Below are positions 9,483-34,390 of a DNA stretch of 64,000 bases, piece after piece (within the stretch, counting starts at the first letter, position 1; every line of letters begins with the position of its first letter). This DNA is from Bacteroidales bacterium (GTDB lineage Bacteria > Bacteroidota > Bacteroidia > Bacteroidales > UBA932): contig JAGDBO010000009.1 in the NCBI GenBank assembly GCA_017959005.1, forward strand, positions 1 to 64,000, in the 5' to 3' direction. The notes under the pieces were generated by a model. That model searched no databases. It saw nothing but the letters and a program-made list of their open reading frames with translations, and was not told where the DNA came from. The position numbers were made by a program, and so were the translations under genes.

Positions 9483-9484
9483 AT

Positions 9485-9877
9485 ATGATTATTACATTGG
9501 AGACGTTAAATGATCTGAGTGCTAAGGCAAAGGCATCTGAAAGGTTAAGAGCAAATCTTGATTTGAGAAATAGCGCGGATGACCAATCTCAGCGGATGCT
9601 CAATGCCCTGGAGCAGGGTACAATAATGCCTATTCATCGGCATCGTGCCAGCTCGGAGACAGTTGTCGTTATTCGTGGAAAGATCCGTTGGATATTCTAT
9701 GACGATAATGGTAACGAGACAGAGCGTGTTCTGCTTGACGCGAATGGCGAAAACCGCATGCTTGTGGTAGAGAAAGACAGGTGGCATTCTCTGGAGTGCC
9801 TGGAGAGCGGGAGTGTGCTTTTTGAATCGAAGGACGGGGCGTATGAGCCGTTGGGTTCGGCAGATGTGCTGAAATAA
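9485..9877 (+). CDS. wbuC: WbuC-family cupin metalloprotein (intact copy)
   Basis: The 130-aa protein fits the WbuC family of small cupins often found at the end of O-antigen or capsule clusters. The first cupin motif is PIHRHRASSETVVVIRG and the second contains DRWHSLECLESGSV, giving His and Glu metal ligands. The biochemical role is not established. A GTG at 9479 would overlap the previous stop, but the ATG at 9485 gives the usual N-terminus. Parts of two further wbuC genes lie at 24006-24128 (C-terminal end) and 26568-26840 (N-terminal part), so this gene family marks borders inside the defence island that follows. Confidence 0.85.
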   Translation: MIITLETLNDLSAKAKASERLRANLDLRNSADDQSQRMLNALEQGTIMPIHRHRASSETVVVIRGKIRWIFYDDNGNETERVLLDANGENRMLVVEKDRWHSLECLESGSVLFESKDGAYEPLGSADVLK

Positions 9878-9880
9878 AAT

Positions 9881-9932
9881 ATTGAGCCGGAGGGGGTAAG
9901 GATTGACGGTGTAATCTGAGGGTGAAGGGTAC
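9881..9932 (+). repeat. Degenerate intergenic repeat following wbuC
   Basis: Directly after the wbuC stop lies a stretch starting ATTGAGCCGG. By eye it resembles the left part of the longer repeats at 26421 and 36140, with shared words such as attgagccgg and gagggtgaa. It is much more diverged than those copies. It may be the wbuC 3' flank from which the other copies descend. Confidence 0.35.
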
Positions 9933-10031
9933 ATACGATGATAATTGTATTTGTATGATAATGAGATGGAATCTGAAGGCATTATTTAGTATTTTGGGGA
10001 TTATTAGAATACTATAACTGATAATAGTATT

Positions 10032-11411
10032 ATGGATAACATTATTGAATTGTACAAGAAATGGCGGAGTCTTCAGCCTATTAAGGAGGAAGATCGCATG
10101 CGTTTGGAACGCAAATTTATGCTGGAGTTCAACTATAACTCCAATCACCTTGAGGGAAATACGCTAACATATGGACAGACAGAGTTTCTGCTCCTTTTTG
10201 GTCGTGCTGTTGATGGTGCTGATATGAGAGACCTTGAAGAGATGAAAGCATCAAATGTTTGCTTGCAAATGGTCAAAGAAGAAGCGGCAGACAAAGATCA
10301 TCATCTTACGGAATATTTCATTCGTACTCTACATAAAACGCTTCTTCGTGAAGATTATGTAGTAAAAGTGAATAGCTCTGAAGGTGTTGTCTCTTCATAT
10401 ACCGTTCACGCAGGCATTTATAAAACTCGTCCTAATTCTGTTAAGACAAAAACGGGAGAGTTATTTACTTATGCCTCTCCAGAGGAGACTCCTGCACTTA
10501 TGGCTGATTTGCTTCAGTGGTATAATGATGCAGAATTTAACGGTGAATTAAGTCCAATAGAGTTAGCTGCTCTTTTCCATTATCGGTATATTAGGATCCA
10601 TCCTTTTGAAGATGGAAATGGTCGCATTGCAAGATTGATTGTTAATTATATTCTGATTAAGAATGGATATCCTATGTTGATTGTAAAGAGCTCTGACAAA
10701 GATAATTATTTGCAGGCCTTGAATGCCTGCGACCTTGTGGTTGGCTTGATTCCGTCTGAAGGTGCACATGCAGATATCACCGAGATTAATCCTTTTTTAG
10801 AATACTTGAAGAAATGTCTGATACAATCACTTAATATTTCAATCAAGGCGGCTAAAGGTGAGAGCATAGAAGAACCAGATGATTTTGATAAAGAACTTGT
10901 GCTTATTGAGAAAAATGTTCGAAAGACGGAGGCGATTGAGGGCGATGATACTATCATCCAACATAAATTGGATGTTTTTAATAATTTCCATAGGTTACTA
11001 TCCGAACGTCTATCGGAAGCCTTGAAGCCAGTATACCAATTCTTCAATTCTATCCATACTAGCTATTACATTTCACTTAAGGGTGATACGATAGACCTAA
11101 AAGGGTTCATCACCGTGAATTCAAACAAGCCCTTGACAAGGAAATTAGTGGGAAATAAGCTTAACATCATCAAAAATGCAAAAAGTATTTTGTTTTGGCT
11201 CTCCTTTGAAAGCGTGAAAGATATTTATAACATGAAGGACATTTCCATTACGGTAAAAGCAGATGTGTTGTTTGATTTACACGGGTATTCATTCAATGGT
11301 GTAAGCTATAGCTATGGCAAGTATCCTGATATGGATGTGATTAACAGTTTTATCTCTGAAACAAAAGCTTCCATACTGAAGAAAATAAAAGCAGCAGCTA
11401 CTAAAGAATAA
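10032..11411 (+). CDS. Fic-family AMPylase with N-terminal inhibitory helix
   Basis: The 459-aa protein carries the full Fic motif HPFEDGNGR at residues 190-198, including the catalytic His and the phosphate-binding Asn and Arg. An inhibitory motif of the (S/T)xxxE(G/N) type, SNHLEG, lies at residues 37-42, so this is a class II Fic protein that holds itself off until released. Fic enzymes transfer AMP from ATP to Ser, Thr or Tyr hydroxyls of target proteins. The C-terminal 190 residues have no obvious DNA-binding domain. Stand-alone Fic proteins of this kind (SoFic type) are listed among phage-defence genes. It stands alone, with repeats or decayed DNA on both sides, at the start of the island. 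Confidence 0.88.
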   Translation: MDNIIELYKKWRSLQPIKEEDRMRLERKFMLEFNYNSNHLEGNTLTYGQTEFLLLFGRAVDGADMRDLEEMKASNVCLQMVKEEAADKDHHLTEYFIRTLHKTLLREDYVVKVNSSEGVVSSYTVHAGIYKTRPNSVKTKTGELFTYASPEETPALMADLLQWYNDAEFNGELSPIELAALFHYRYIRIHPFEDGNGRIARLIVNYILIKNGYPMLIVKSSDKDNYLQALNACDLVVGLIPSEGAHADITEINPFLEYLKKCLIQSLNISIKAAKGESIEEPDDFDKELVLIEKNVRKTEAIEGDDTIIQHKLDVFNNFHRLLSERLSEALKPVYQFFNSIHTSYYISLKGDTIDLKGFITVNSNKPLTRKLVGNKLNIIKNAKSILFWLSFESVKDIYNMKDISITVKADVLFDLHGYSFNGVSYSYGKYPDMDVINSFISETKASILKKIKAAATKE

Positions 11412-12078
11412 ATTATTTTTGATAACTAGTTTTTGTTAGTGTGTAGAGTTGTTTAAAGCGAGAGGACTATAGGTTAATAGGAGCGATTCGGCGGTGTGAG
11501 AGTGAAAAGGGGAGAGAAGGGAGTGGATGGGGAAACTATCGCGGAGGAAAAGCAAAGATTGATTGTTCGCCGTTTGGACACGGATTCTTGGTTGATGGTG
11601 AATGATTGATATGGGTGAACAAATACTTCAAAGGCGTGCTAGCCGGTTATCTTGGGGCGAACTATGCGAGTGGCCCTTTAACCGAATGGCAGATAGATGT
11701 GATAAAAGAGAATATTTCGCATTATTGTGAAGCGACGATAGACCATTCTCAGCTCTCATATCAAGAGAAAGAAGAACAGAAGTGTTATTGTTAATCGATG
11801 ATAAATTGAAGGTTGGTTTTGTGGTTAAGGGGGCACGGTTCATGGCAATTATAGTTCAGGATTCACGATTATGGGCTATTTGCGGTTAATGGTTTGAGGG
11901 GTTCATGGTTGATGATTAGAAAGCATGGGAGGGAGGAGGCGCCAAATGAAATAAGGCCTGGAAGTGAGTTTCCAAGGTGTGAAGGATGAGATGAGAGGGA
12001 TGGGGAGGATGATGATACAACGTGATAGATTCATGGGATACATTAGGGATTTGATTTAAGGGTAGATTGGGGCGTTTT
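11412..12078. other. Intergenic stretch with a border repeat and no convincing gene
   Basis: These 667 bases hold one copy of the border repeat (11494-11551) and a GC-poor tail with loosely repeated words such as gttcatgg and ggttaatgg around 11835-11920. An open frame at 11606-11794 lacks an ATG start and a ribosome site and matches nothing I know. No -33/-7 promoter was found close to the gene at 12079. Confidence 0.5.
11494..11551 (+). repeat. Border repeat, copy 1
   Basis: Contains the core words gtgagagtgaaaaggggaga and ggaaactatcgcggaggaaa. Nearly the same words recur at 26421-26515, 34391-34444 and 36140-36236, always between gene modules. This copy follows the Fic gene and precedes the Lamassu-type operon. 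Confidence 0.75.
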
Positions 12079-13080
12079 ATGGAAGAAATAATATCATCTA
12101 TAGAAGTTCTGAAGGCATCATACGGTGACTGCCTCTTTGTAACCATACAGAACGAAGGTGCTGTCTATACCATTATGATAGATGGAGGGACTCCCAGTAC
12201 CTACTCTTTCAAGAACAAAAAGCAGAAAACGGAGGCTGGCCCCCTAAAACTCAAACTATCAGAACTTCGAGAAAAAGGTCGCAGTATAGATCTACTTATC
12301 ATCACCCATGTGGATAACGACCATATAGGTGGCATAATCAGATGGTTTGAAGAAGACCTGCCTTCGCCAGACTTCGTTAAACGTATCTGGATGAACGATG
12401 ACGTGGAAATTTACATCGGGCAGGGGCTGGAGAATGCCTCATCACATGCTGCGGCGCTAAAGAAAACGCTGACTGATAAAGGTTTTTCTTTAGAAAATCA
12501 GAAAATAACAGGGGAAGATGAGCAGTTTGATTGGGGACGTATCGTGATTATAGCCCCCACGGCAATACAGCATAACAGAATAGCACGGGATATAGCTGAG
12601 GCTTTGGAAAATACCGTGAACAACCGGTATGATGTTGACATAAATACTATACTCGCTGAAACATATATTTGTGATAATGTGTCGCCCGAGAATGATGCAT
12701 CAATCGCATTCATTCTACAGACAAATGACAAGAAGAACTATCTCTTCTTAGGGGATGCCAATATTGCCACAATTTTGTCTGCAATAAAAGGACTGGATGG
12801 CTTTGAACACCCGATACACTGCGAATGGGTGAAGCTGTCGCATCATGGTAGCAAGAACAATTTCAAACCAGAGCTTCTCCAAGAGATAGAAGCTGAAAAC
12901 TATATCATCAGCACGGATGGAACCCGCTACGGGCATCCGGATAAAGAGCCAATATCATGGATTATAGGCAGGACAAATGCCAAACTGTGGTTCAATTATC
13001 CACAGCGTGCAGAAAAAATATTCACAGCGAAAGACAAAACAGATTATCCAAACTTAGATAAAAGAATCGAATCACTATAG
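12079..13080 (+). CDS. MBL-fold hydrolase, candidate effector of a Lamassu-type system
   Basis: The 333-aa protein is a metallo-beta-lactamase-fold hydrolase close to the ComEC-type subgroup. Motifs are the metal-binding THVDNDHIGG (residues 76-85), LFLGDAN and LSHHGSKNN. It could cleave nucleic acid or another phosphoester. In Lamassu (ABC-3C) systems the first gene is the toxic effector and hydrolases are among known effector types. I start at the ATG at 12079 rather than an upstream TTG. Only 1 nt separates it from the trypsin-like gene, followed by a small middle component and an SMC ATPase, matching the hydrolase + protease Lamassu layout as I recall it. Confidence 0.82.
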   Translation: MEEIISSIEVLKASYGDCLFVTIQNEGAVYTIMIDGGTPSTYSFKNKKQKTEAGPLKLKLSELREKGRSIDLLIITHVDNDHIGGIIRWFEEDLPSPDFVKRIWMNDDVEIYIGQGLENASSHAAALKKTLTDKGFSLENQKITGEDEQFDWGRIVIIAPTAIQHNRIARDIAEALENTVNNRYDVDINTILAETYICDNVSPENDASIAFILQTNDKKNYLFLGDANIATILSAIKGLDGFEHPIHCEWVKLSHHGSKNNFKPELLQEIEAENYIISTDGTRYGHPDKEPISWIIGRTNAKLWFNYPQRAEKIFTAKDKTDYPNLDKRIESL

Positions 13081-13081
13081 A

Positions 13082-14380
13082 ATGGAGTATGTTGATGAAC
13101 TAAGGGCATTGACCGTGAGGGTAGAGAACGGCAGTGGTGTACTTGTAAGACCGCTGTCGGAGGAGTATGATTATGTCCTGACGGCTTATCATGTAATTAA
13201 ACACTTTGACGGGAAGGACGCGAAGGAAATCACTATAGACCATCTAAGCGGAGACATAAGGGTGGAGGCGGTGGATGTGGTAAAAAACATCGATAGCGAC
13301 GCTGCTGTTATTCTGGTTAAGAAGGTTGCCTGCAATTTGCGCTTTGCCTATCCAAAAACCACACTGCCCAATGAGGAAAAGAGATGGCATATGGGGTATC
13401 CGAACAACCAAAACGGCAAAGGAGAGGCAAAAAAATGTGTGGAACATGAAATAAGGAATTGGTTGGGCAGTTATGAGGAGAAATATGTGAAATACCAATG
13501 TCAGCAGACCATCGAAAAGTGCGAGATAGAAGGCATGTCGGGTGGTGGAGTGTTTGACAGCCATTTTCATTTATTGGGCGTGCATAGGGGATTTACTGCT
13601 GATTTGGCGGTTGAGCAGCTGGGTAAGTTTGTTATGATTCCGTGGGAGTGTTTTGAGGAAATTATCAGTTACAACAAGCTTCCGGAAGTTTTACCTTTTG
13701 ACCTTTCATCACTGAAAACATTCAAAGAGCAGATATTCTGCTTTGGTGACAATCTAGGCGCAAGAATGAAACTAAAACAGCTGATGGCGCAGTTGGCTAT
13801 ACTGAAAGCTTCAATGGAAGACTGGTCGCCCAAGACCTGTTATGAAGCTTTCCAACAGTATAGACAGGCACGGCAATATGTGAAGAGCGCGGAACTTGAG
13901 GAGAATGACTGGGTATTGTTTGGCGAGTTTTTAGTAGCTATGAAAATATTGCTGAAAGAAAAAGGAATCAGTAACTGTGATGACATTTTTCCACATTTCC
14001 AATATGTGCAGTCGGAAAGGGATTTTGACATCTTTGAAGTGGACGACCATTTGGATCCCGATGTTCTAGGCAAGGTGAAGGACGATGACGTGGTGTTTGT
14101 AATAGGAGGTATCAGCGGCAAGGGGTATAAGCAAGATGTGAGATCAGGTGGAGTGATAAGAATCAATGACTCAAGGGAACCTGGCGGTATGTTCGACATT
14201 GCAAGGATGGGAAAGGATGTGTTTGGGGCATTCACCTTTGTCAATGGCAACCTTTTCAAAGAGGCAATGCAGGAGAACACAGATGAGATACAAGATGCGC
14301 AGGATTGCATAGAATTCTACCAGGAACTATTAAGCAAGAAGATATGGTCCAAAAAGAAAGATACAGAACGGAAAGCATAA
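13082..14380 (+). CDS. Trypsin-like serine protease, second candidate effector of the Lamassu-type system
   Basis: The 432-aa protein has a chymotrypsin-fold protease domain in residues about 1-200. The triad is visible: His in LTAYHVI (H37), Asp in DSDAAVI (D73) and Ser in GMSGGGVF (S153). The C-terminal half, about residues 210-432, has no domain I recognise and may bind the partner ATPase complex. Trypsin-like proteases occur as effectors in ABC-3C/Lamassu systems and would act by cleaving host proteins once the SMC sensor fires. No signal peptide is seen, so action in the cytoplasm is likely. The gene overlaps the middle component by 37 nt. Confidence 0.82.
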   Translation: MEYVDELRALTVRVENGSGVLVRPLSEEYDYVLTAYHVIKHFDGKDAKEITIDHLSGDIRVEAVDVVKNIDSDAAVILVKKVACNLRFAYPKTTLPNEEKRWHMGYPNNQNGKGEAKKCVEHEIRNWLGSYEEKYVKYQCQQTIEKCEIEGMSGGGVFDSHFHLLGVHRGFTADLAVEQLGKFVMIPWECFEEIISYNKLPEVLPFDLSSLKTFKEQIFCFGDNLGARMKLKQLMAQLAILKASMEDWSPKTCYEAFQQYRQARQYVKSAELEENDWVLFGEFLVAMKILLKEKGISNCDDIFPHFQYVQSERDFDIFEVDDHLDPDVLGKVKDDDVVFVIGGISGKGYKQDVRSGGVIRINDSREPGGMFDIARMGKDVFGAFTFVNGNLFKEAMQENTDEIQDAQDCIEFYQELLSKKIWSKKKDTERKA

Positions 14381-14763
14381 CCGTGTTTGGAGAGAACCAG
14401 AAAGTGGTTATCTTCATCACCCATCCGCTGGATTATGATAGTTTAAAGGCGGAATGGGAAACCATACGGAACGAAGTAGCTAACAGCCAGAGTAAGATTG
14501 ATGACGAGTTTGAGCGATGGAATCACTATCTGTTCTTTTTGGTGGATGAGAAGTCCATGCGCGACATCAACCTGAAATACAAAATAGAGCATGACACCAT
14601 CTCTTCACGTAAAATACTTGTCTCGCAGAAGGAGTATGCTGAGGATGGGTTTGAGGCTGTGGTGAAGAAGTATATACAGTATGCATTTGAACCCCACTAC
14701 TTCGAGGAGTTGGATGAGTTTGAGAAGAACAGTGAAGTGGTTGCATTATTGAAAGACAGATAG
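14344..14763 (+). CDS. Small middle component of the Lamassu-type (ABC-3C) system
   Basis: This 139-aa protein sits between the protease and the SMC gene. In size and position it matches the ABC-3C middle component (LmuC-like), which bridges effector and ATPase. The sequence is a mix of strand and helix, with an ERWNHYLFFLVDE segment and an acidic C-terminus; no catalytic motif is visible. The ATG at 14344 is chosen because an upstream in-frame ATG at 14305 would overlap the protease gene even further. The stop is 3 nt from the SMC start. The assignment rests mainly on gene order. Confidence 0.65.
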   Translation: MVQKERYRTESITVFGENQKVVIFITHPLDYDSLKAEWETIRNEVANSQSKIDDEFERWNHYLFFLVDEKSMRDINLKYKIEHDTISSRKILVSQKEYAEDGFEAVVKKYIQYAFEPHYFEELDEFEKNSEVVALLKDR

Positions 14764-14766
14764 TGT

Positions 14767-17700
14767 ATGAAGCTAAAGACAATAGACATAAGAGCGTTCA
14801 GATTGTTTGGTGAAGAACACCTTGATTTTACCAACGAGCAGCAAGGTGGGGAAGGCAGTTGTGCCAACTTTGTTTCCATTTATGCGCCTAACGGTTTTGG
14901 CAAGACCTCGCTGTTTGATGCCATTGAGTTTGGCATGACGGGTAATATCCATCGCTTGAAACTGGGCAATTTCGATGAGCAGGTGAAGTATGATGGTAAA
15001 ATATCAGACTTCAGCAGTTTTATTCATAACAAAAAAATGCCCGACGACAAAGTGAGTATCAAACTTGGTGTAGAAGACTTTGGGGACGGTGTTGTGGAAC
15101 AAGTTGTTGAGCCAGACGCTGAGAAAGGAATGCTTATAGGAGATGGTCACAACGCCTTTTTCACTAATACGATATTGTCGCAAGACTGGTTTTCAGAGTT
15201 CCTTTCTGCAACGACAGCAGAAGAACGCTTCCGCTCGTTTATGCGCAATTTCCACCAATCGGACGACCTGTTGGAGTATCATAGTACGCTGAAATCGACT
15301 CTGACGAGCCTAAACCGGGAAAAGGGCAACAAGCAGCGTGCTTTGGACAAATTGAAAGGGCAGCAGACAAATGATGTGGATGAGCATATCATGGAGCGCC
15401 TTGAAGACGCGTTTGAAAAGTTAAAGTCAGATGGTATACAGATAGGTTGTCAGCGAAAAATAGACGAAGACAGCCTGACTAAGCTGAAATTGGAGATTGA
15501 AGTGGCTACTGGTAAACTTGAAGTGGAGAAAAAACGCGATGAGCAGACGTTGGAGAAAATACAGCGGCTGTTGACCGGACAGGGTGAATTGTTGACACCA
15601 GAAAAGATTGATGCTCACCGCAAGGCCATCGTAATACTGAAAACGCGAATAGAGGAGAATGAAAAGGCACTGGCAAAGGTGATAGAGTTAAAATCCCTTT
15701 TAGAGCAGGTAACGAAGTTACGACAAGACAGGAAGGTCTGCAGTGATGAGTTGGCTAGGCTGTCGAAGTTAATAAGCGGTTATGCACAATATAGGCAGAT
15801 GCTCTCAGATGTTGAGAAACTTAACAAAGAGTTAAAAAGATGCGAGGATGAAACTCAAACTCAGAAGAAAGAAAAGGAACATATAGAACCGCTGTTGAAG
15901 GAGACGGAAAAACAGAAGGAAGAACTTGCCCGGCGGGTTACTGTGCTGACAAATAAATTGATGCAGTTAGAAACGGAATATTCTCAATATCGCCAACTCT
16001 TATCTGATATCGAGAACCGTGGTAAGACGGAAGTCAGTATTCAAGCTGGAATCGCAAAGAACAAGGAAGAACGAGCGGAGCTTGAAAAGCGAAAAGCCCG
16101 TCTCTTGGATATTCAAAAGAAGGTTACGGAACGTAGTATTGACAGCGTTGTTGAGGATTATAAGCAGCAGAGTCTGGAGCTGATAGGGATAAATCAGCGC
16201 ATCAAACAAAAAGAATCTGCCATCAAGCAGGAAGAAGAAAGCATTAACAGACAGACCGCCTATCAAGGACAGGTGGAAGACCTGCTTGTGCGTGCCAGAG
16301 GGATGGTGGATGAGCTGAAGAATGGGGTCTGCCCGCTTTGTGGTCATGATTATGGAGCAACGGATGCACTTCTGAAGAGTATCGAGGACAATAATGCTGT
16401 TTCATCCTCCATAGAGGCATCCATGGCAAGAATTGCCAAACTGAAAGAAGAAATTGAGACAGATAAGAAAGGGTCTGATGCAATATACCAAGAAATAAAC
16501 CGTCTTGTGGAGCAAGCGATTGCAAACCTTGGCAACGATATGGTGGCACAGGAGAAAGCTCTTGCAGAATTGAATACTTCGCTTGCTGAAACGCAGCGGA
16601 TTATTGCAGAAGGCAAGAAAGCCCTATCAGAGAGGTTCAAAGATTTTGAGGGCTTACTGCAAGAGCAGATTCAAGCGCAATATGAAAATGCTAAAGCAGA
16701 AGCGCAAAAGGGGGTGGATGCTTGTGATAAAGTGCTGTCAGCATTGAAGGCAAAGTTAGGTGAGATTGCAACTCAGACAGAGAAAAACGATCAGAAGCGC
16801 AGCATAGCACAGTCGGCAATGCAAGCTATACTGAATAGCGAGGACTATCAGGTGTATAGCGGCTTACTTAAAGAAGGAGAAGTAGCAGATGACGAGACGT
16901 TTGCCCTTTGGAAAACAAACACAAAGGAGAAAGAGCAGTCGTTGTCAAGCTTTGATGCTAAATTGGTGGAAATTCAGTCAGCCATTGCCAAGTTGAGAGC
17001 GAATAAGGTAGATTTGGCCCAGAAAGTTGTGATAGTGGGTGAAATCGCAAAGCAGAAAACAGATTTGACAAGAGCGGAAAACTTGCTGACGAAAACCATG
17101 CAGTTTATCAAGAGAGACTGCAAGTTGGCAGATGTGAACGACGACACCCCAGTAGATGAGATACAAGAAAGGTTAAGTGTGTTGAAGAAAACATGTGAGG
17201 TCGGTGCTGCCCTGGCGGATAAGAAGAAAAATTGCCTTGGTGATTTAGAGACACTGATTGCTGCAGCTGGAAAATATAATCAACAGCAGTTGCTGAAGAA
17301 GGATATTGAAAAGGCAGAAGGGGAGTTGGCATACGTGGTCAATGGGCAGGACAATGTGAAGAAAGAAATTGCTAGACTACAAGATTATCTGACCAAGTAT
17401 GTGAAGAATTTCTTCCAGGTTAAACTGATTAATGAACTGTATAATAGGATTGATCCCCATCCTGAATACAAGGAGGTGAAATTTGAATGTGACTTCTCTT
17501 TGACACGTCCTCGTTTGAATGTATATATGGGCAGCAGAGACGAGAAGAACGACCAGATAGTGCCTAACTTGTATTTCAGTACGGCGCAAGTAAACATATT
17601 GTCTTTCTGCATATTCTTGGCAAAGGCCATGTTTGCCAAGACCGATGACGGAAAGGATGTGGGTTGTATCTTTATTGATGACCCGATACAGGCTTTGGAT

Positions 17701-17889
17701 GACATCAATATTCTTTCAATGATTGATTTGCTACGAAATGTGGCTTTCACTATGAACAGACAAATAGTAATTACAACGCATGACCAGAACTTCTTTGGGT
17801 TGCTGCAAAAGAAAATACCTCAGGACAAGTTTAATGCCTGCTATTGGGAGATATATGAGAGAGGAAAATTCAAACGAGTAGAGGCGTAG
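14767..17889 (+). CDS. SMC/Rad50-like ATPase, LmuB-type sensor of the Lamassu-type system
   Basis: The 1040-aa protein has an N-terminal Walker A (PNGFGKTS, residues 41-48) and two long coiled-coil arms around a zinc-hook-like CPLC motif (C522 and C525, in a VCPLCGHDYG context). The C-terminal head has a signature-like STAQVNIL, Walker B CIFIDDP near residue 970 and an H-loop ITTHDQNF. This is the Rad50/SMC plan of LmuB, which in characterised Lamassu systems detects foreign DNA ends or structures and releases the effector. It follows the middle component by 3 nt. The next gene starts 25 nt downstream, so the operon may run on into the Septu-like genes. Confidence 0.88.
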   Translation: MKLKTIDIRAFRLFGEEHLDFTNEQQGGEGSCANFVSIYAPNGFGKTSLFDAIEFGMTGNIHRLKLGNFDEQVKYDGKISDFSSFIHNKKMPDDKVSIKLGVEDFGDGVVEQVVEPDAEKGMLIGDGHNAFFTNTILSQDWFSEFLSATTAEERFRSFMRNFHQSDDLLEYHSTLKSTLTSLNREKGNKQRALDKLKGQQTNDVDEHIMERLEDAFEKLKSDGIQIGCQRKIDEDSLTKLKLEIEVATGKLEVEKKRDEQTLEKIQRLLTGQGELLTPEKIDAHRKAIVILKTRIEENEKALAKVIELKSLLEQVTKLRQDRKVCSDELARLSKLISGYAQYRQMLSDVEKLNKELKRCEDETQTQKKEKEHIEPLLKETEKQKEELARRVTVLTNKLMQLETEYSQYRQLLSDIENRGKTEVSIQAGIAKNKEERAELEKRKARLLDIQKKVTERSIDSVVEDYKQQSLELIGINQRIKQKESAIKQEEESINRQTAYQGQVEDLLVRARGMVDELKNGVCPLCGHDYGATDALLKSIEDNNAVSSSIEASMARIAKLKEEIETDKKGSDAIYQEINRLVEQAIANLGNDMVAQEKALAELNTSLAETQRIIAEGKKALSERFKDFEGLLQEQIQAQYENAKAEAQKGVDACDKVLSALKAKLGEIATQTEKNDQKRSIAQSAMQAILNSEDYQVYSGLLKEGEVADDETFALWKTNTKEKEQSLSSFDAKLVEIQSAIAKLRANKVDLAQKVVIVGEIAKQKTDLTRAENLLTKTMQFIKRDCKLADVNDDTPVDEIQERLSVLKKTCEVGAALADKKKNCLGDLETLIAAAGKYNQQQLLKKDIEKAEGELAYVVNGQDNVKKEIARLQDYLTKYVKNFFQVKLINELYNRIDPHPEYKEVKFECDFSLTRPRLNVYMGSRDEKNDQIVPNLYFSTAQVNILSFCIFLAKAMFAKTDDGKDVGCIFIDDPIQALDDINILSMIDLLRNVAFTMNRQIVITTHDQNFFGLLQKKIPQDKFNACYWEIYERGKFKRVEA

Positions 17890-17914
17890 TAGAATAAACG
17901 AGAAGATTTAGCGA

Positions 17915-20167
17915 ATGGCCAACTTCAAGATAATATCCATCAAGGTACTGAAGCCGCAAGAAGAGTTCCTGAAGTGGAACTATGGGCAATTAATTGAAGC
18001 CTTTGGCGACCCAGTGCCGGAAGATATTGCTCTACGTGTATCGCGGTATAAGAACATTCACAAGATTCTTGAACCCGGAACGGAATATCGCTTTCAAGAG
18101 ATAGATGGTGCCCTGCCGGAAGATTTCTTTCAGGTCAAAAAAGACTATGAAGAAAATGAGCGCGTCATTGACCTAAGTGTGTGTGCCATTGTTGGACAAA
18201 ACGGTTCTGGAAAGAGTACGCTGCTGGAGTTGATGATAAGGTTGTTGAACAATGCGGCCTTTGCATTGAAGAATGCTTACGTGAGCCATCCTTCAATGGA
18301 GCTGCAATTTGTGGAGGACGTCTATGCTGAAATGACTTTCCAAATGCCGGATGGCGTTGTTTATGTATTGCGTCAAGAAGGAACTGTGATAACTTGTGAA
18401 AGTGGTGGTGTTCCTTATTGGAGTTATGACTGTCGAAATGGCGAGCTACTGCCGCAGGCTGATGCTACAAGGAAACTGCAGGATTTCTTTTTCACTATTG
18501 TACTGAATTACTCAGCCTATTCGTTCAATCTCTATAATTTCCGCCCCGAATGGCGGGGCCAAATGCCTAATGACGGTTTGGAATACACAGATGAGGACAG
18601 ATGTTGGCTCGGTGCCATCTTTCATAAGAACGATGCCTACCAAACTCCTATCGTACTGAATCCTTTTCGCTCTTTTGGGGAGATAGACTTCAATAATGAG
18701 GCAGACCTGACACGTGACCGATTGGTGCTGTTGTCTATTCAGAACGTGGATATGATGTCGGTACTGATGGAAGGGGTGAAGACGCACAGTATCGTGTTTG
18801 ATACTAAGATGTCATTGTTGGAACAACCTAAGATTCCTTACAGTTCTCCGTTACTGGTAGATACTTTCATTCAGCTCAGGAACATATCACACCGTTATGA
18901 CGTTAATGATGCTGTTTATAATAGATGCCAGCGGCTTTGTGACATTGTGATTGATGAATGGAGCAAAGTCCTTGACGTTGACTTGAAGGAAGAGGTGGCT
19001 GATACAATGCTGAGACAGGATATTAGAAGAGCGGTAAACTATCTTGTTTACAAAACCATCAAATCAACCAGGAATTATGCCTTGTACAGCAATTACCGTC
19101 AGTGTTTCGTGCTTCCTAGAGAAGTCCCTGACGATGTATTGGAGGAAAGTTTCACCTTAGCGAAAGAAAAGATACCTCAGCTGGTAAAGGAGCTTTGGGA
19201 AGACCCAACTCACGTAACGCTGAAAATACACAAAACGCTGGCATTTTTGAAGTTCAAGCACTATCAATTGGGTATGGGCAATGAGCAAGGATATGGAAGA
19301 CATGAAGTCAGTGCCGGGAGATATAATCAAATTATCGAAGGATTGTACAATCAATTAGGAGGAGATGGGCAAAATACGTGGAAGCGGGAATTTCTGTTAC
19401 CTGCGCCTTGTTTTGATGCTCGTCTGATACTGTCAGAGAAACGACTAGAGGCCGGTGGCGAAAAAGTAGTGCTGACTGAGTTGAACAGCCGCAGTTCGGG
19501 TGAAATGCAATTGCTGTATTCACTTAGCACCGTGCTGTATCATCTGAAGAATATCGATTCCAATATCATCGGTGGCAGAAATGCTGTGAACTACCCCTGT
19601 GTAAATCTGGTGTTTGATGAGATAGAACTGTACTTTCATCCCAACTTTCAGAAAGACTTGCTTTATGACTTGATATACGCTATCAGGAAGATGAGATATG
19701 GAGGCATACGAGCTGTCAATATCATCATTGCCACCCATTCGCCGTACATTTTAAGCGACTTTCCCAAAAGCAATGTGTTGTGTATGGAGAAGGGGAAAGT
19801 GTATCAAGATGCCTTGGAGGGAATGGGTAACACCTTTGGAGCCAACGTATATGACATCCTGAACAGCCGGTTTTTCATGAAGGAGTTTGTGGGGAAGTTT
19901 GCTGTCAGGAAGCTGGAAGAGATTATAGAGACGGTAAAAGAAGGTGGTGAAATAACGTTGGAGGAGTACCGTCAGCGAAAAGTTTTGGTAGATGTAATAG
20001 GGGATGAATTTATCCGGGAGAAATTGACAGAAGAACTGCTTGATAAACTGAACAGGCATGACCGCAGGATGATGGCACGGGAAGAGATTGATAGAATAGA
20101 GCGCAGAAAGCAGTATCTGGAGGATTTGATAAATGCTCCTGCAGAAGAGCGGAGAGTGGAGGAATGA
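17915..20167 (+). CDS. ABC/AAA ATPase of a Septu-like pair (PtuA-like)
   Basis: The 750-aa protein has an ABC-type ATPase split by a long helical insert. Walker A is VGQNGSGKST (residues 93-102), a signature-like RSSGEMQLL lies near residue 527, Walker B VNLVFDEIELYFHP near 567, and the H-loop IIATHSPYIL near 607. It overlaps an HNH nuclease gene by 4 nt, the layout of Septu (PtuA ATPase + PtuB HNH). PtuA proteins I recall are shorter; extra length is at the N-terminus (about 90 residues before Walker A) and in the insert. No reverse transcriptase lies nearby, so it is not a retron-type arrangement. It begins 25 nt after the Lamassu-type SMC gene. Confidence 0.8.
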   Translation: MANFKIISIKVLKPQEEFLKWNYGQLIEAFGDPVPEDIALRVSRYKNIHKILEPGTEYRFQEIDGALPEDFFQVKKDYEENERVIDLSVCAIVGQNGSGKSTLLELMIRLLNNAAFALKNAYVSHPSMELQFVEDVYAEMTFQMPDGVVYVLRQEGTVITCESGGVPYWSYDCRNGELLPQADATRKLQDFFFTIVLNYSAYSFNLYNFRPEWRGQMPNDGLEYTDEDRCWLGAIFHKNDAYQTPIVLNPFRSFGEIDFNNEADLTRDRLVLLSIQNVDMMSVLMEGVKTHSIVFDTKMSLLEQPKIPYSSPLLVDTFIQLRNISHRYDVNDAVYNRCQRLCDIVIDEWSKVLDVDLKEEVADTMLRQDIRRAVNYLVYKTIKSTRNYALYSNYRQCFVLPREVPDDVLEESFTLAKEKIPQLVKELWEDPTHVTLKIHKTLAFLKFKHYQLGMGNEQGYGRHEVSAGRYNQIIEGLYNQLGGDGQNTWKREFLLPAPCFDARLILSEKRLEAGGEKVVLTELNSRSSGEMQLLYSLSTVLYHLKNIDSNIIGGRNAVNYPCVNLVFDEIELYFHPNFQKDLLYDLIYAIRKMRYGGIRAVNIIIATHSPYILSDFPKSNVLCMEKGKVYQDALEGMGNTFGANVYDILNSRFFMKEFVGKFAVRKLEEIIETVKEGGEITLEEYRQRKVLVDVIGDEFIREKLTEELLDKLNRHDRRMMAREEIDRIERRKQYLEDLINAPAEERRVEE

Positions 20168-21159
20168 TAGGAATAAGCTATAATAATGAAACTCCCGTTT
20201 ATGATGCTTACATCTGTAAGATGCGAGACCACGTTCAGTTGGACTTCATTCGCTATAAAGGGCCTGTTGATGGTGATTGCAATCGTTTTGTCAATTCTTA
20301 TTTGAGCGGCGCTCAGTATGAAGCATTTGTGAATACACCTGTCAATCAGTTGCGGTCGCTTGTTGAAGATGTAGAACGTAATTTCCCACAGTTGAAGCGT
20401 TGCCGTGAGGGAACATTGAATAAAGGGAATACGCCGCTATACCTATTTCTAGTATATCACTTTGTGGAGCATGGTTATAAGAACGGGTTTCAGGAAAACA
20501 AGATTCCATATACACTACCCAAAGATGAATTGATAGAATCGGTAGGAATAGATGTTTGCCCTTATTGCAACAGGAACTTTATATATACTCAGAAGTCATT
20601 GAGGAAGGTAAAAGTGGTTCAAGCGGAACTTGATCATTTCTACAGTAAAGAGTTGTTCCCGTATCTGGCAATAGCAAAGTATAACCTTGTTCCAAGTTGT
20701 CCGTGTTGTAATGGGTACGGGGCAAAGTTTACGACGGATGCATATAAAGAGAATATGGTGAATCCATACGAGATAGGAAACGCTGATGACTATATGGGCT
20801 TCAGACTTCGTGTCAGGAATGCCAAAGTAACCTCGCTTGATACGTTGGCCAATGGGCTTTCGTTTAAGATGTTGGCCAAGAAACCAGGTGTACAATCAAA
20901 TATAGATGTGTTGAATCTGGAAGATTTGTACCAGCATCATACAGATTATGCCGCTGAACTATACTTTAAAGGCATTGTTAAGGCCAATCGCTTGTATCGT
21001 ACCAGCCTGAAGGGATTATTGAGACGTAAATGCATCTTGCTCTCGGATGATGACATCAAGAGAATCATCGTGGGTAATTATGTGAGAGAACAAGACTACG
21101 GGAAACGCCCGTTAGCCAAGATGATGCATGATGTGGCAGAGGATTTAGGATTGATTTAG
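20164..21159 (+). CDS. HNH nuclease of the Septu-like pair (PtuB-like)
   Basis: The 331-aa protein has a treble-clef HNH domain in the middle: a CPYC zinc pair at residues 132-135, the catalytic-type ELDHFYSK near residue 155, and NLVPSCPCCN near residue 180 supplying the second zinc pair and the HNH Asn. The N-terminal 130 residues are helical, and the C-terminal part carries basic segments. In Septu the HNH protein cuts nucleic acid when the ATPase senses phage. The ATG overlaps the ATPase stop (ATGA), so expression is coupled. Confidence 0.82.
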   Translation: MIGISYNNETPVYDAYICKMRDHVQLDFIRYKGPVDGDCNRFVNSYLSGAQYEAFVNTPVNQLRSLVEDVERNFPQLKRCREGTLNKGNTPLYLFLVYHFVEHGYKNGFQENKIPYTLPKDELIESVGIDVCPYCNRNFIYTQKSLRKVKVVQAELDHFYSKELFPYLAIAKYNLVPSCPCCNGYGAKFTTDAYKENMVNPYEIGNADDYMGFRLRVRNAKVTSLDTLANGLSFKMLAKKPGVQSNIDVLNLEDLYQHHTDYAAELYFKGIVKANRLYRTSLKGLLRRKCILLSDDDIKRIIVGNYVREQDYGKRPLAKMMHDVAEDLGLI

Positions 21160-21225
21160 GCCTGAAGTATAACGTATGAATCTCGCTGTAACTGAATCTA
21201 TGAAACTTTGTTATGCACACTGGAT

Positions 21226-21822
21226 ATGATAAGGAGTGATGAAGAAAAGAGGACTATTATTGTTCATGAAATACTGATACCATCGCTGAAGAGACTTTAT
21301 GCGGTTGATTATGACAATATTCGCTTTGGAGTTTCAGAAAGGAATATCTGTGCTAGACTAGCTTATCACATGGAGAACCTTATGCGCAGATATGACGAGG
21401 TGAGTGGTGATGGCTTATTTCATGACTACTTCGCTGACGTAGAGTATAACCGTATGGGCAATGGTGATCTGAAGCATTATGAAAACAGCGCTCATAGACC
21501 TGTGTATATGGTGAGCGATTTGCTGATTCAAACGAGAGGCTATGGTAGAAACTATCTGGCTGTTGAAATGAAGAGAAAGGGGAATCGTAGGAACGTTGAT
21601 GAGGATAAAGAAAGACTCATGTCTTTGGTATCATCTCCACCCAATTATGAACAAGCCCATAAATGTGTGTATGATACTTTGGTGGGTGCTTTTATTGAGT
21701 ATTCAAAAAAAGGAGTATGTGTGGAGCTCTTTGAGAATGTTGAAGGTAGAGGCGTAAATACTGAGAATATTGTCTTGACGTACAGACAAGACGATGCTGG
21801 CCAAGGCAGTCTGACATTGTAA
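21226..21822 (+). CDS. PD-(D/E)XK-type nuclease-like protein trailing the Septu-like pair
   Basis: The 198-aa protein has a plausible PD-(D/E)XK core: a helix with SERNICARL (E38), then VSDLLIQ (D98) followed by YLAVEMKRKG (E114, K116), which fits D-x(n)-ExK on adjacent strands. I do not recognise a specific family. The ATG at 21226 is chosen; an earlier in-frame start at 21208 would be TTG. It begins 66 nt after the HNH gene on the same strand, with no terminator seen between, so it may be a third part of that system or an independent nuclease. Confidence 0.6.
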   Translation: MIRSDEEKRTIIVHEILIPSLKRLYAVDYDNIRFGVSERNICARLAYHMENLMRRYDEVSGDGLFHDYFADVEYNRMGNGDLKHYENSAHRPVYMVSDLLIQTRGYGRNYLAVEMKRKGNRRNVDEDKERLMSLVSSPPNYEQAHKCVYDTLVGAFIEYSKKGVCVELFENVEGRGVNTENIVLTYRQDDAGQGSLTL

Positions 21823-21940
21823 TGGATAAACAATGAGGGTGAACAACGCTATACGAATATGAACCATTTACGGTTAATGGTGACGGGTTAAGAAAACATA
21901 ATAATTGCAATCAAAAGTAAAGAGTTTGAGCGAGAATAGT

Positions 21941-21948
21941 TAATTTTG
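21941..21948 (+). promoter_or_regulatory. Bacteroidota -7 element upstream of the PRTase/DprA pair
   Basis: TAATTTTG matches the TAnnTTTG -7 consensus and lies 21 nt before the ATG at 21969. No TTG is at the usual 19-nt distance, so the -33 part is weak. It suggests the pair is transcribed separately from the genes before it. Confidence 0.5.
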
Positions 21949-21968
21949 CAAGGTAAAAATGAATTGTT

Positions 21969-22811
21969 ATGAATATAGGAATCTTCAATTATCTGTTTGG
22001 AACAAAGGCAATCACGGAAGAGGCGATTCGTGATTTTGTGGCTGATACCAACGTCAAGAGAATCTGCTTCTCTCGTATCCAGACCCATGCCCTGTGGAAA
22101 ACGGATGAGGGTGAGGATATGATAACAGTGCCATTCGGAGACTCTATAGGATTGCTTTTGAAGGAACAAACGGGTATTGTCTTGCGAAAATCGAGTAAGG
22201 GCAACTACTACAAGAAGCTTACTCAAGAGGAATACGAACAAGCAAAGAAGTTTGTGGACTCGTATGCGAACGTGGTATTTCTAAGGGATCTGCTAGATGT
22301 CTCAGTCGCTTTATCTTTGAATTTTAAGTCGGATGGTGAGGCTCGTACGCATATTGGCCAGTTGGAGAAAAGTGCCAAATACGACAATGATGAGAAAGCT
22401 GTTGTAGAGCTTGCTTCCATTGTTGATGAGTTTATAGGTAAGAATCCGTTGTATGCCAATGCGGACTATCTGTGTGCGGTGCCTCCATCAAAGACGGGTG
22501 TAAAGAACTTGCCAGTCAGGGTAATTGAAAGATTGAAGAATTTCAAAGGAAAGAATATCTCTGATAGCATTGTATGGACTTCTAAAACCGAAAGCCTTAA
22601 GAATGCTGAAGGGGCAGACAAACTGGAAATACTTAAGCACTCCGGACTGGAAATATCGGAAGGCGTGGATTTTGAAGGTAAAGACATTGTCGTGTTGGAC
22701 GATTTGTATATGTCGGGCATCACGTTGCAATACGTGGCCATGAAGTTGAAAGAGTCCGGCGCAGGGAAAGTGTATGGCCTGTGCCTGGTGAAATCGTTTG
22801 GCAACAAGTAA
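21969..22811 (+). CDS. Phosphoribosyltransferase-fold toxin candidate (ShosT-like)
   Basis: The 280-aa protein ends in a type I PRTase domain with the PRPP-binding loop VVLDDLYMSGIT near residues 240-251, as in ComF. The N-terminal half is helical and lacks the zinc cysteines of ComF. The partner gene starts 12 nt downstream and encodes a DprA-like protein. A PRTase + DprA pair is the layout of ShosTA, a toxin-antitoxin system with phage-defence activity in which, as I recall, ShosT is the PRTase toxin. The substrate of such toxins is not clear. Alternative: a divergent competence operon, unlikely given the setting. Confidence 0.75.
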   Translation: MNIGIFNYLFGTKAITEEAIRDFVADTNVKRICFSRIQTHALWKTDEGEDMITVPFGDSIGLLLKEQTGIVLRKSSKGNYYKKLTQEEYEQAKKFVDSYANVVFLRDLLDVSVALSLNFKSDGEARTHIGQLEKSAKYDNDEKAVVELASIVDEFIGKNPLYANADYLCAVPPSKTGVKNLPVRVIERLKNFKGKNISDSIVWTSKTESLKNAEGADKLEILKHSGLEISEGVDFEGKDIVVLDDLYMSGITLQYVAMKLKESGAGKVYGLCLVKSFGNK

Positions 22812-22823
22812 GATGTAGAGGTT

Positions 22824-23699
22824 ATGTGTGAGATAAAGGATGTACAAGCTATCTATAGCTTTATGAAGATAAGGGGTATTGGTGTGACTCGCACCAATAA
22901 GGAATTGTTGTCCTATACACAGCAACTGGGCTCGATGTGGAAACTTGAGGACTGGTTGTTGTCTGTGCTCACAGCGGAACAGAAAGCGGAGTATTACTCG
23001 CAATATGAAATGGTGGAAGGGCTGAAGATAAAGAGTCTTGAAGTGTTCTTTAACACGGTACTTGACCAGAGTTATCCTTCCATGCTGAAGAATCTTTTGA
23101 AATTGAACACCCCTCCAGTGCTGTCAATGATTGGAAATGTCCAACTTCTGACCAATAGGAAAGTGGGGTTCAGCGGTTCCCGCAAGGTGTCGGAGAAGGG
23201 GATTGCCGTGACACGAGACTGCGTAGAACAATTGTCGAGAGAGAAAGACGTGAGTATCGTCAGTGGATATGCTCAGGGTGTGGATAAGGAAGCTCATTAC
23301 ACAGCTCTTCAAGCTGGTGGCAGTACGATTATCGTATTGCCCAATGGTATAAGCTCGTTCTATGTGAGACAGGAACTGAAGGATGTGTGGGACTGGAACC
23401 GCGTTCTTGTTATCAGTGAGTATCTGCCAAAAGACAAATGGTCGGTGAGCAGAGCGATGAACCGTAACAATACCATTATCGGGCTAAGTGATGCTATGGT
23501 AGTGGTTGAGGCCGGACTGACAGGTGGCAGTCTTGACGCTGGTTTGCGGTCGCTGGAGGACAAGAAGCCGCTGTTTGTTCCTGTCTATTCGGATTATCCT
23601 GAATCAGCTCTTGGTAATAGAATGCTTCTGGAAAAGGGCGCAAAAGGAATTGGACGTAACAGGCAAAGCAATAGAGCCAATGTGATGGCGTTGTTTTGA
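22824..23699 (+). CDS. DprA-like protein (ShosA-like antitoxin candidate)
   Basis: The 291-aa protein has a short helical N-terminal domain and a DprA/SMF Rossmann-like core: VGFSGSRKVSEKG, then VSGYAQGVDKEAH, STIIVLPNGIS and VVEAGLTGGSLDA. DprA proteins bind single-stranded DNA and load RecA during transformation; here the pairing with a PRTase gene points instead to the antitoxin of a ShosTA-like system. It lacks the C-terminal winged helix of many full-length DprA proteins. The stop is followed by two strong hairpins, which probably end the transcript. Confidence 0.78.
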   Translation: MCEIKDVQAIYSFMKIRGIGVTRTNKELLSYTQQLGSMWKLEDWLLSVLTAEQKAEYYSQYEMVEGLKIKSLEVFFNTVLDQSYPSMLKNLLKLNTPPVLSMIGNVQLLTNRKVGFSGSRKVSEKGIAVTRDCVEQLSREKDVSIVSGYAQGVDKEAHYTALQAGGSTIIVLPNGISSFYVRQELKDVWDWNRVLVISEYLPKDKWSVSRAMNRNNTIIGLSDAMVVVEAGLTGGSLDAGLRSLEDKKPLFVPVYSDYPESALGNRMLLEKGAKGIGRNRQSNRANVMALF

Positions 23700-23713
23700 G
23701 AATAAAAATTAGC

Positions 23714-23806
23714 TAGAGGCACCCGCTTGAAAGGGATGCCTCTATGGTTTAAGTTTTAAAGGTTGACTTGGCTTTCCCCTTCGGGCCATCAAGTTAAACC
23801 TTAAAA
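23714..23806 (+). terminator. Two consecutive hairpins after the PRTase/DprA pair
   Basis: First hairpin: TAGAGGCA (23714-23721) pairs with TGCCTCTA (23737-23744). Second: a long imperfect stem from TTTTAAAGGTTGACTTGG (23754) to its near complement ending CCTTAAAA (23806), with a short loop holding ccccttcggg. The second is near-symmetric and could work in both directions. Confidence 0.6.
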
Positions 23807-24005
23807 GTTAAATAGTCAGGATTGGTCGCTAAGTTCACGCCTGGTAGAGTTCATGGCATCACTTGGACAAAGGCGTCCGCCATATACGATTCGTCTGTCA
23901 CTGACCTTAAGTCCCAACTCGGGCTTTTCCAGGATTTTGGCAGAGGGCCACTGCTTAAGGGCGAGTACGAGCACACTGATAAGCTCGGGACGGGCGAGGC
24001 CTGCG

Positions 24006-24128
24006 GCACTGAATATTCCTGCCGGTCAATGGCATACGGTTAAAGCGTTAGAGAGTGGTTCTGTGATTCTGGAGATGAAAGATGGGGCGTATGAGCCGCT
24101 GGGGAAGGCAGATGTATTGGAGTTATAA
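24006..24128 (+). pseudogene. wbuC: wbuC C-terminal fragment
   Basis: The frame reads ALNIPAGQWHTV and then LESGSV, KDGAYEPLGKADVLEL, which aligns with the last 40 or so residues of the intact WbuC at 9485-9877 (DRWHSLECLESGSV, KDGAYEPLGSADVLK). The first cupin motif is missing and the bases before it (23815-24005) match neither WbuC nor anything I know. It lies directly before the AbiJ-like gene. The missing front half corresponds closely to what is left in the fragment at 26568-26840. Confidence 0.75.
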
Positions 24129-25198: not shown

Positions 25199-25360
25199 AT
25201 GGAAGTAAATACTTTAAGTGTTATAATATACATTCTCGTTCCAATTCTTGCAGCTGTGCTAGGAGGATGGATTGGTGCATTTTGGGGCAATAAATATAGA
25301 GAGACCAAGGATTTGCATGAAAAGGGGATGAGGTGCAATCTTTTATTCTATGAAAGTTAA
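25199..25360 (+). CDS. Small single-pass membrane protein (53 aa)
   Basis: MEVNTLSVIIYILVPILA begins a 53-residue frame with one clear membrane segment (residues about 6-29) followed by a basic, charged tail NKYRETKDLHEKG. The frame ends 11 nt inside the start of the HEPN-LprI-like gene, so the two are probably coupled. It could anchor or regulate that protein. No strong ribosome site is visible, so start choice is tentative. Confidence 0.5.
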   Translation: MEVNTLSVIIYILVPILAAVLGGWIGAFWGNKYRETKDLHEKGMRCNLLFYES

Positions 25361-26246
25361 ATTAAAACCAAGTGAGGTAAGACAATCTCTTTCAAGACAG
25401 ATAGATCAACGTCATATTTTAGAGGTGTTCGATAGATTAAAACAAGAAATTAATTCTTTGAAGCCGGATTTTTTGGAATTTATCCCAGTTAAGCTTGTTT
25501 CATGCATTGAAGATTTCTATCGTCAGATTTATGCGAGCATAATTGATAATAAGGCCTTTAAAAAGAATCTAGTTAATGTTAGGAGTTTAAAAGAGTTAAA
25601 GTTTGATTTTGAGATAATTAAGAGCCTAGAAGATGATGAAGTATCTTTAGGAGAGTACATTTCATATTTATTCCCCTGTAATAATCTAAAAGGAATTCTC
25701 TCTAACATATCCGATCTTTTAGGGGTTGATTTTGCAAAAGAGATTAAGGCACTTTTCAAATCCAAGCAGGATTATGATGATTTCTTTGTTACTATAGAAG
25801 AGATATTTACAATTCGTCACAGACTCTGCCATGAGGCTTCTGTAGTTACATCGTTAAAGAAAAAAGATGTGACTAAAATGATAGATTACTCCTATCACTT
25901 CTTACACTCCTCCGGACTCATTGTCCTAGGATTTCTATATCCTAACTCTCCTATGACGACATCAGAAATGAAAGCATCATCAGAGAAGTCGTATAATGAG
26001 GCAGAAAAGGAACTAACCGATCTGATTAAGAGGATTAAAGAAGGGTTGAGTAAAACCGATTTTCCGGAGACGTTTAATTACATTGAAAAATGGAAGGAAT
26101 ACAGAAAGGAGAGAGCTAGAGAAAACGCCGGTAACTTTGCAGAGGGTGGTTCAATGTACCCGATTCTCTACTTGATGGATTTAGAAAAGATTACACGACA
26201 AAAGATAAAGGAGTTAAGGACTGACTATAAATGGTTGTTGCGTTAA
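25350..26246 (+). CDS. HEPN-like RNase domain fused to an LprI-like C-terminal domain
   Basis: The 298-aa protein has two parts. Residues about 1-195 are helical and contain RHRLCH at 156-161, which fits the RX4H active-site motif of HEPN ribonucleases. Residues about 205-298 resemble the LprI N-terminal-type domain (DUF1311): repeated EAEKELTDLIKRI helix, KWKEYRKERA, GGSMYPILYLMDLEKITRQ. LprI-type domains are usually periplasmic and disulphide-bonded; here the expected Cys residues are missing and no signal peptide exists, so a cytoplasmic use is likely. It overlaps a 53-aa membrane protein gene. Activity is inferred, not shown. Confidence 0.62.
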   Translation: MKVKLKPSEVRQSLSRQIDQRHILEVFDRLKQEINSLKPDFLEFIPVKLVSCIEDFYRQIYASIIDNKAFKKNLVNVRSLKELKFDFEIIKSLEDDEVSLGEYISYLFPCNNLKGILSNISDLLGVDFAKEIKALFKSKQDYDDFFVTIEEIFTIRHRLCHEASVVTSLKKKDVTKMIDYSYHFLHSSGLIVLGFLYPNSPMTTSEMKASSEKSYNEAEKELTDLIKRIKEGLSKTDFPETFNYIEKWKEYRKERARENAGNFAEGGSMYPILYLMDLEKITRQKIKELRTDYKWLLR

Positions 26247-26420: not shown

Positions 26421-26515
26421 CAGATTGAGCCGGTGGGTGTTAGGGGTGATGAGGCGTTGTGAGAGTGAAAAGGGGAGAGAAGAGAGTGGATGGGGAAACT
26501 ATCGCGGAGGAAAAA
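26421..26515 (+). repeat. Border repeat, copy 2 (longest form)
   Basis: Runs from cagattgagccggtgggtgt through gtgagagtgaaaaggggaga to ggaaactatcgcggaggaaa. The left third is shared almost exactly with copy 4 at 36140, the middle and right parts also with copies at 11494 and 34391. It lies between the HEPN-LprI gene and the wbuC N-terminal fragment. Confidence 0.8.
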
Positions 26516-26840: not shown

Positions 26841-26912
26841 ATAGGTTGCAGCGCTGGCAACACTGCAACCTATCAAAAGACAAACATTCTGCAATTTGCA
26901 ACTTGCAGAATG
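26841..26912. repeat. Pair of perfect hairpins at the wbuC fragment break
   Basis: ATAGGTTGCAG (26841-26851) pairs with CTGCAACCTAT (26863-26873), and CATTCTGCAA (26885-26894) pairs with TTGCAGAATG (26903-26912). Both arms share the TTGCAG/CTGCAA word. The pair sits between the broken wbuC end and the 3' end of the minus-strand HNH gene. It may be a terminator for that gene or a recombination end. Confidence 0.7.
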
Positions 26913-26920
26913 CAAAACTG

Positions 26921-34346: not shown

Positions 34347-34390
34347 AATTATAATACAATAGTATGCCGACGAGAATGGTTGATAAGGTG

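Follow-up and report, generated by a model that had tools for sequence, protein, structure and literature searches.

We analysed a 64,000-nucleotide stretch (the window) of a draft Bacteroidales genome of the GTDB lineage UBA932 (assembly GCA_017959005.1, contig JAGDBO010000009.1, positions 1 to 64,000 of the forward strand). The source genome has 1,797,565 bases in 22 contigs and is 86.5% complete. The listing of open reading frames (ORFs) confirmed seven genes in order on the + strand, from 12067 or 12079 to 21822, within a defence island of about 22 kb. A first-pass annotation, made from the letters alone, had described a Lamassu-type set joined to a Septu-like set and an extra nuclease, and had suggested that the linked whole may act as one layered system. 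We consider it very likely that the run is two self-contained anti-phage systems that turned neighbours in the island, followed by an unrelated orphan gene.

Genes 1 to 4 form the first half. Gene 1 (12079..13080, possible TTG start at 12067) encodes a metallo-beta-lactamase (MBL)-fold hydrolase, Lamassu LmuA by PADLOC and Pfam, and a probable pro-nuclease. Gene 2 (13082..14380) encodes a trypsin-like protease fused to the ABC-3C C-terminal domain 4 (CTD4), the LmuA protease by the same two sources. Gene 3 (14344..14763, possible TTG start at 14305) is the middle component LmuC, or MComp1, by PADLOC, PF20289 and alignment, and gene 4 (14767..17889) is LmuB, an SMC/Rad50-like ATPase, by PADLOC and motifs. 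The second half consists of gene 5 (17915..20167), a PtuA-like ABC ATPase of the PDC-M62A family (M62A) by PADLOC, a PtuA profile match and motifs, and gene 6 (20164..21159), a PtuB-like HNH protein of the PDC-M62B family (M62B) by PADLOC and invariant residues. Gene 7 (21226..21822, possible TTG start at 21208) encodes an orphan protein, possibly PD-(D/E)XK-like from a weak match and a motif read by eye.

Where two starts are given, the first is that of the ORF listing (12067, 14305, 21208) and the second an in-frame ATG (12079, 14344, 21226). With the ATG starts, the gaps are 1, -37, 3, 25, -4 and 66 nt. Genes, order, strand and gaps agree with the first-pass annotation, as does the resemblance of each half to a known system, hydrolase-plus-protease Lamassu for genes 1-4 and Septu for genes 5-6. 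Its functional calls are supported by PADLOC and Pfam for six genes; the PD-(D/E)XK call for gene 7 is suggestive.

The Lamassu-type set and the Septu-like pair

Judged by their sequences, genes 1 to 4 are a hydrolase-plus-protease Lamassu (ABC-3C) set with intact motifs. PADLOC matched LmuA (MBL) at 1.7e-79, LmuA (protease) at 5.4e-52, LmuC at 6.1e-18, and LmuB at 2.5e-178, the last spanning residues 1-1038. In Pfam, Lactamase_B, Trypsin_2 with CTD4, MComp1 and AAA_23 were over their cut-offs and SMC_N was under; AAA_15 and AAA_21 were also over cut-offs among the proteins of the run. The two domains of gene 2 (Trypsin_2 1.2e-10, CTD4 7.1e-7, both over cut-offs) give an effector domain followed by a C-terminal docking domain, and LmuC (PF20289, 4.2e-11) sits between the effector and LmuB. 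The MBL gene lies directly upstream of the protease gene.

The tested catalytic residues are kept. Residues D35, H77, D79, D81, H82, D226, H255 and H256 of the MBL protein, which we presume to form its active site, are identical in all six aligned sequences (the window and five plasmid sets), and so are His37, Asp73 and Ser153 of the protease. LmuB has motifs at positions 42, 522, 968 and 1003, which we take to be Walker A, a zinc-hook CPLC, Walker B and an H-loop-like TTHD. The set shares with the known type its four genes, their order and their domain make-up. Against the five plasmid homologues, the MBL protein is 27-33% identical and the protease 16-21%; the LmuB relative at a further locus (L067) is 28% identical. 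The set differs in the first insertion of its MBL protein, which falls 15-18 residues short of that in the five relatives aligned with it. The nuclease-protease pairs of AVAST type 1, Hachiman and DRT differ from the window in their partners, as here the protease is fused to CTD4 and the ATPase is LmuB. The NCBIfam Avs1a model scored 178.4 bits against a cut-off of 420. Some PADLOC models of reverse transcriptase-linked systems match genes 1 and 2; as we read them, these matches come via the MBL and protease parts.

Published relatives suggest how this set may act. Tuck et al. 2025 (PMC12799240) show that the Hachiman MBL protein is a pro-nuclease and find the same principle in AVAST. In their account, the HamM active site is blocked by two insertions, each is cleaved after an isoleucine by the partner trypsin-like protease, and cleavage sets free an indiscriminate DNase. 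The same source names Lamassu among four hosts of the MBL-trypsin pair and presents oligomerisation as activating fused effectors in Lamassu too, and a review casts LmuB in the likely role of sensor, with LmuC as middle component and LmuA as effector (PMC10586767). By extension, the SMC-like LmuB would, together with LmuC, sense foreign DNA and activate the protease-LmuA, probably through clustering. The protease would cut the inhibitory insertions of the MBL protein, which could then act as an indiscriminate DNase and stop the infection.

By likeness to HamM, Ile111 and Ile188 of the window's MBL protein are candidate cut sites, and they stay candidates because the HamM sequence lies outside the alignment. 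The first is Ile in five of six sequences and Leu in one; the second is Ile in four, with Val and Phe in the other two. Both lie in or beside variable stretches of the alignment. A hydrolase-plus-protease Lamassu with a shortened first MBL insertion is a natural test of the published gating model.

Genes 5 and 6, which overlap by 4 nt, are by the same kind of evidence a Septu-like ATPase/HNH pair, the PDC-M62 of PADLOC. Gene 5 matched PDC-M62A at 5.8e-50 and its best PtuA model at 3.1e-15; gene 6 matched PDC-M62B at 3.2e-50 and its best PtuB model at 3.8e-10, with no Pfam match. As in PtuAB, an ABC ATPase is followed by an HNH protein, and a profile built from 12 M62A proteins found PtuA chains of solved structure (Retron Ec83 at 2.9e-12, PtuA 8ee4 at 3.7e-11), while the M62B profile weakly matches a chain of the TIGR02646 family (0.0042). 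The Walker A, signature, Walker B and H motifs of gene 5 are kept (GQNGSGKS at 94, SSGE at 527, FDEIELYFHP at 567, THSP at 607), and C132, C135, D157, H158, N174, C179, C182 and N183 of gene 6, of HNH type, are invariant among 15 sequences. However, the window's ATPase is longer than the matched PtuA and retron ATPase chains (750 aa vs. 456-551 aa) and is matched better by PDC-M62A than by the PtuA models. The NCBIfam PtuA and PtuB equivalogs of the retron Ec78 subtype reached 40.5 of 500 bits and 16.4 of 150 bits. Since both cut-offs were missed, we file the pair as Septu-like PDC-M62 and not as that subtype. A retron-type Septu was rejected, as no reverse transcriptase domain was among the Pfam matches of the scanned island genes.

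In a survey of the Bacillus cereus group, PDC-M62 calls are reported as duplicating Septu calls in 203 cases (PMC11811056). In two other sources, PtuAB proteins are reported to act on DNA or on tRNA-Tyr, depending on the system (PMC11555353, PMC13096335). By analogy with these relatives, the PtuA-like ATPase would control the HNH nuclease, which on infection would cut nucleic acid, either DNA or tRNA.

Distribution of the two halves

When defence systems lie close together in an island, their tight spacing alone does not argue for a combined system; it is where the halves occur that separates the readings. M62A was sought in 344 genomes from the order and in 169 from the family, and an M62A profile was run on 39 genomes of the genus. 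LmuB was searched in the same three sets, and both served as queries against plasmids. The fetched regions, which surround the stronger matches, were checked for all seven genes.

M62A and M62B stood together in 25 of the 28 M62 loci examined. LmuB or LmuC was present in none of the 25 fetched loci outside the window that held both. An LmuB relative was found in 8 loci fetched from outside the window (L067 and L118 to L124), and none of these had M62A or M62B. The seven-gene order proposed in the first-pass annotation was sought in other genomes, and what recurred was the two halves, apart from each other. In the loci examined, this distribution contradicts the idea of one joint system, and the parts appear as further members of already known kinds of system. 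Separate occurrence would be the pattern expected of two separate horizontal acquisitions. The two halves may share a transcript, and nothing that we saw shows that either needs the other. With the halves apart in the relatives examined, the locus has the appearance of an ordinary defence island, not of a new combined system.

On the Lamassu side, the MBL protein, the protease/ABC-3C protein, the middle component and the ATPase occurred without M62 in five of the six LmuB plasmid regions opened. Plasmids of Enterococcus faecium (with the ATPase given as two coding sequences), Providencia rettgeri, Shewanella baltica and Priestia aryabhattai carry the four genes annotated as such a set; on one of Enterobacter cloacae they are listed as hypothetical proteins. 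The gene table of the Acinetobacter ursingii plasmid region lists the middle component and the ATPase only, and L118 also holds LmuB and LmuC relatives only.

The PADLOC LmuB family matched 363 of 395 genomes of the phylum and also 12 of 14 control genomes, so we did not use it as a count; most of these matches are taken as other SMC-like proteins. Twenty of the best PADLOC-LmuB regions outside the window were fetched from this phylum sample and searched. One of them, L152, had relatives of the MBL protein (3e-28) and the protease, with a weak M62A-profile match (8e-5) and M62B absent. It is therefore a further, ninth and weaker Lamassu-type locus that is also without the M62 pair. In L152, which comes from another family of the class, the MBL and trypsin-like pair lies near a 707-residue frame matching PADLOC LmuB at 7.8e-21. 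In the other 19 regions, the search at E 0.01 found no relative of the MBL protein, the protease, LmuC or LmuB, and M62B was missing. The LmuB protein query matched in none of the 20 at E 0.01, and none held the M62A and M62B pair, with weak M62A-profile matches in L150, L152 and L153 only.

On the Septu side, the order search gave 46 M62A match rows, the window's own included; 19 regions were opened (18 gave the pair), together with one LmuB region. Three further M62A regions were opened (two gave the pair). Among plasmid records, we opened 4 of the 26 that had M62A and 6 of the 19 that had LmuB. A scan of genome contigs with our alignment A1 (generic patterns) gave at least two loci, and two alignment-based viral scans at least one each; the loci of the contig scan and of one viral scan were among the regions examined. 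L068 and L070 (weak M62A, no M62B) and L145 (the contig ends 269 nt past the match) were left out of the counts of 25 and 8, and so was L117, which had no match. L051 and L066 come from one genome and L125 has two M62 pairs; therefore, the 25 loci are not fully independent. Some flanks were short: 0.9 kb downstream of the M62A match in L054, 39 nt upstream in L058 and 1.3 kb upstream in L067. Order-search rows not fetched were G279:C217 (E 2.1e-82, on a 3,140-base contig), G273:C14 and those at E 1.4e-5 or weaker, and in the family search G753, G877, G809 and a second place in G814. L125 lies on a Segatella copri plasmid (NZ_CP085933.1), where 22 kb contain both of its M62-type ATPase/HNH pairs together with a Qat set, in which qatC is annotated.

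LmuB had no match in the 38 other genomes of the genus, many of which are incomplete, and M62A gave only partial, weak ATPase matches there (best 2.5e-12 vs. 1.0e-205 for the window). The A1 search of the genus matched 38 of 39 genomes, mostly as short ATPase matches; 12 of the 39 are at least 90% complete with at most 5% contamination. A megablast of 10032-24000 found no nearly identical copies in plasmids or phages.

Several points weigh against reading the run as two separate systems of known kinds. The loci opened are part of those found (19 from the 46 rows, and the 4 of 26 and 6 of 19 plasmid records). The 25-nt gap between LmuB and M62A, without a promoter or terminator match, is compatible with one operon and hence with co-regulation. 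Gating could differ, given the shortened first MBL insertion. Finally, in the single result to run counter to separate acquisition, one of the 25 M62 loci (L144; same family, other genus) has an MBL and trypsin-like pair about 4 kb downstream of M62AB (8863-18436). Its protease continues into a P-loop region as read by eye, a joining that we liken to AVAST-like pairs; LmuB was not found there, and CTD4 lay outside the search of this locus. As L144 shows, an island can bring M62AB and nuclease-protease modules close together although they are not the same system.

Possible shared transcription, gene 7 and the layered reading

Two functionally separate halves could still be co-expressed from one operon with a common promoter upstream of 12079. 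This is a real, if tentative, possibility and is compatible with the reading of two neighbouring systems. One transcript for genes 1-6 is plausible from the spacing, 25 nt between the halves and -4 nt within the second one, and the shared transcript of the first-pass annotation is compatible with it. Scans for promoter motifs and terminators gave no match in the gap itself (17890-17914). The single + strand terminator-like site within the run (18343-18358) lies inside the M62A ATPase gene, and the region has about as many sites of this sort as chance would give (11 vs. a mean of 10.3 in shuffles).

Exact TANNTTTG begins 28 nt ahead of the PsyrT-like start (21941-21948, a candidate Bacteroidota -7 element) and 33 nt ahead of the AbiL-like start (27395-27402), yet it is missing within 200 nt upstream of 17915. 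However, it is missing near 12079 too, the nearest upstream copy on the + strand being at 11414; therefore, its absence near 17915 means little. As a single element, TANNTTTG was counted 68 times, above all 100 shuffles (mean 50.6), and the two-part promoter motif, found 5 times in the window, is close to chance (mean 2.36, with 7 of 100 shuffles reaching 5).

Gene 7 might instead belong to the Septu-like pair as a third component and extra nuclease, which we regard as unlikely. It lies on the same strand, 66 nt downstream of M62B, and two M62 loci (L069, and L144 with a 334-aa ORF) have a nearby downstream gene with a possible nuclease motif, as seen by eye. Its own D-x(n)-ExK string, also found by eye, is SDLL at 103 and VEMKRK at 119, and a single weak PADLOC match is to PD-Lambda-3_A (1.5e-4). 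Against this, a gene 7 homologue was found in none of the 28 M62 loci (tblastn 1e-3, phmmer 1e-2), and the gene after M62B varies by locus. We took one following gene per locus within 1.5 kb of M62B, a rule that can skip another gene (as it did in L144). Such a gene was present in 19 of the 25 loci, with just one related pair among them; thus, no fixed third gene was seen, and we rejected gene 7 as a fixed third component.

More widely, gene 7 fell into no Pfam or NCBIfam family; none of its PDB sequence matches was credible (best E 1.7), and its best PHROGs match was at 0.037. No homologues were found in 60 relatives, plasmids, phages or viral contigs, and the two matches among 385 genomes of the phylum, its own included, were marginal (E 0.0015 and 0.00997). 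It adjoins none of the 36 M62 and LmuB loci examined. There is no comparative evidence tying it to either system, and it is best described as an orphan, possibly PD-(D/E)XK-like.

That all seven genes act together, one transcript supplying two ABC-type sensors and as many as four effectors, is highly improbable. The same strand, the tight spacing and the gap at 17890-17914, with neither a promoter nor a terminator match, would fit it, but the co-location counts (0/25 and 0/8), on which we rejected it, the lack of gene 7 beside any examined locus and the further defence units continuing on the same strand all stand against it. We hold it to be just as doubtful that the Lamassu set, the Septu-like pair and gene 7 are one co-transcribed unit with cross-talk in this lineage, for example with gene 7 serving the Septu-like pair as an additional effector or a safety component that is fired by DNA damage from the Lamassu DNase. 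If the halves did act jointly, this would be, to our knowledge, the first joint Lamassu-Septu system, a point that our literature search would not settle.

The surrounding defence island

The next defence unit after the run, at 21969..23699 on the + strand, is a ComF/phosphoribosyltransferase-like and DprA-like pair (PsyrTA/ShosTA-like) by PADLOC, Pfam and NCBIfam. Among the other island genes are those for a Fic protein, an AbiJ-NTD4 protein (PDC-S32), an AbiL-like ATPase and RloB pair, and SIR2 with HerA. Upstream of the island lies a polysaccharide-type locus (glycosyltransferase, DegT aminotransferase, nucleotidyltransferases), and downstream are a symporter, peptidases and FtsK, among others. 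The protein at 25350-26246, beside the AbiJ-NTD4 protein, has an odd combination of a C-terminal LprI match (2.1e-10) and a weak HEPN match (0.0094).

Repeats run through the island. A DUF6016 cupin gene is present as two copies and a 3' fragment among the defence units (9479-9877, 24012-24128, 26568-26924). These are direct repeats, 83% and 75% identical to the first copy, which suggests cassettes inserted or duplicated around the cupin gene. An intergenic repeat of 74 nt occurs at 11478-11551 and 26441-26514 (92% identical), with shorter matches at 34378-34443.

Cupin genes were found in 10 of the 39 genus genomes, the source genome included, and 4 of the 9 other fetched regions had a DegT-type gene 77-93% identical to the window's near the cupin. 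In another species of the genus (L109, 17982-19199), a relative of the AbiL-like ATPase, 27% identical, stands just after a DegT gene 77% identical to the window's. The arrangement hints at a recurrent defence site where the polysaccharide locus ends.

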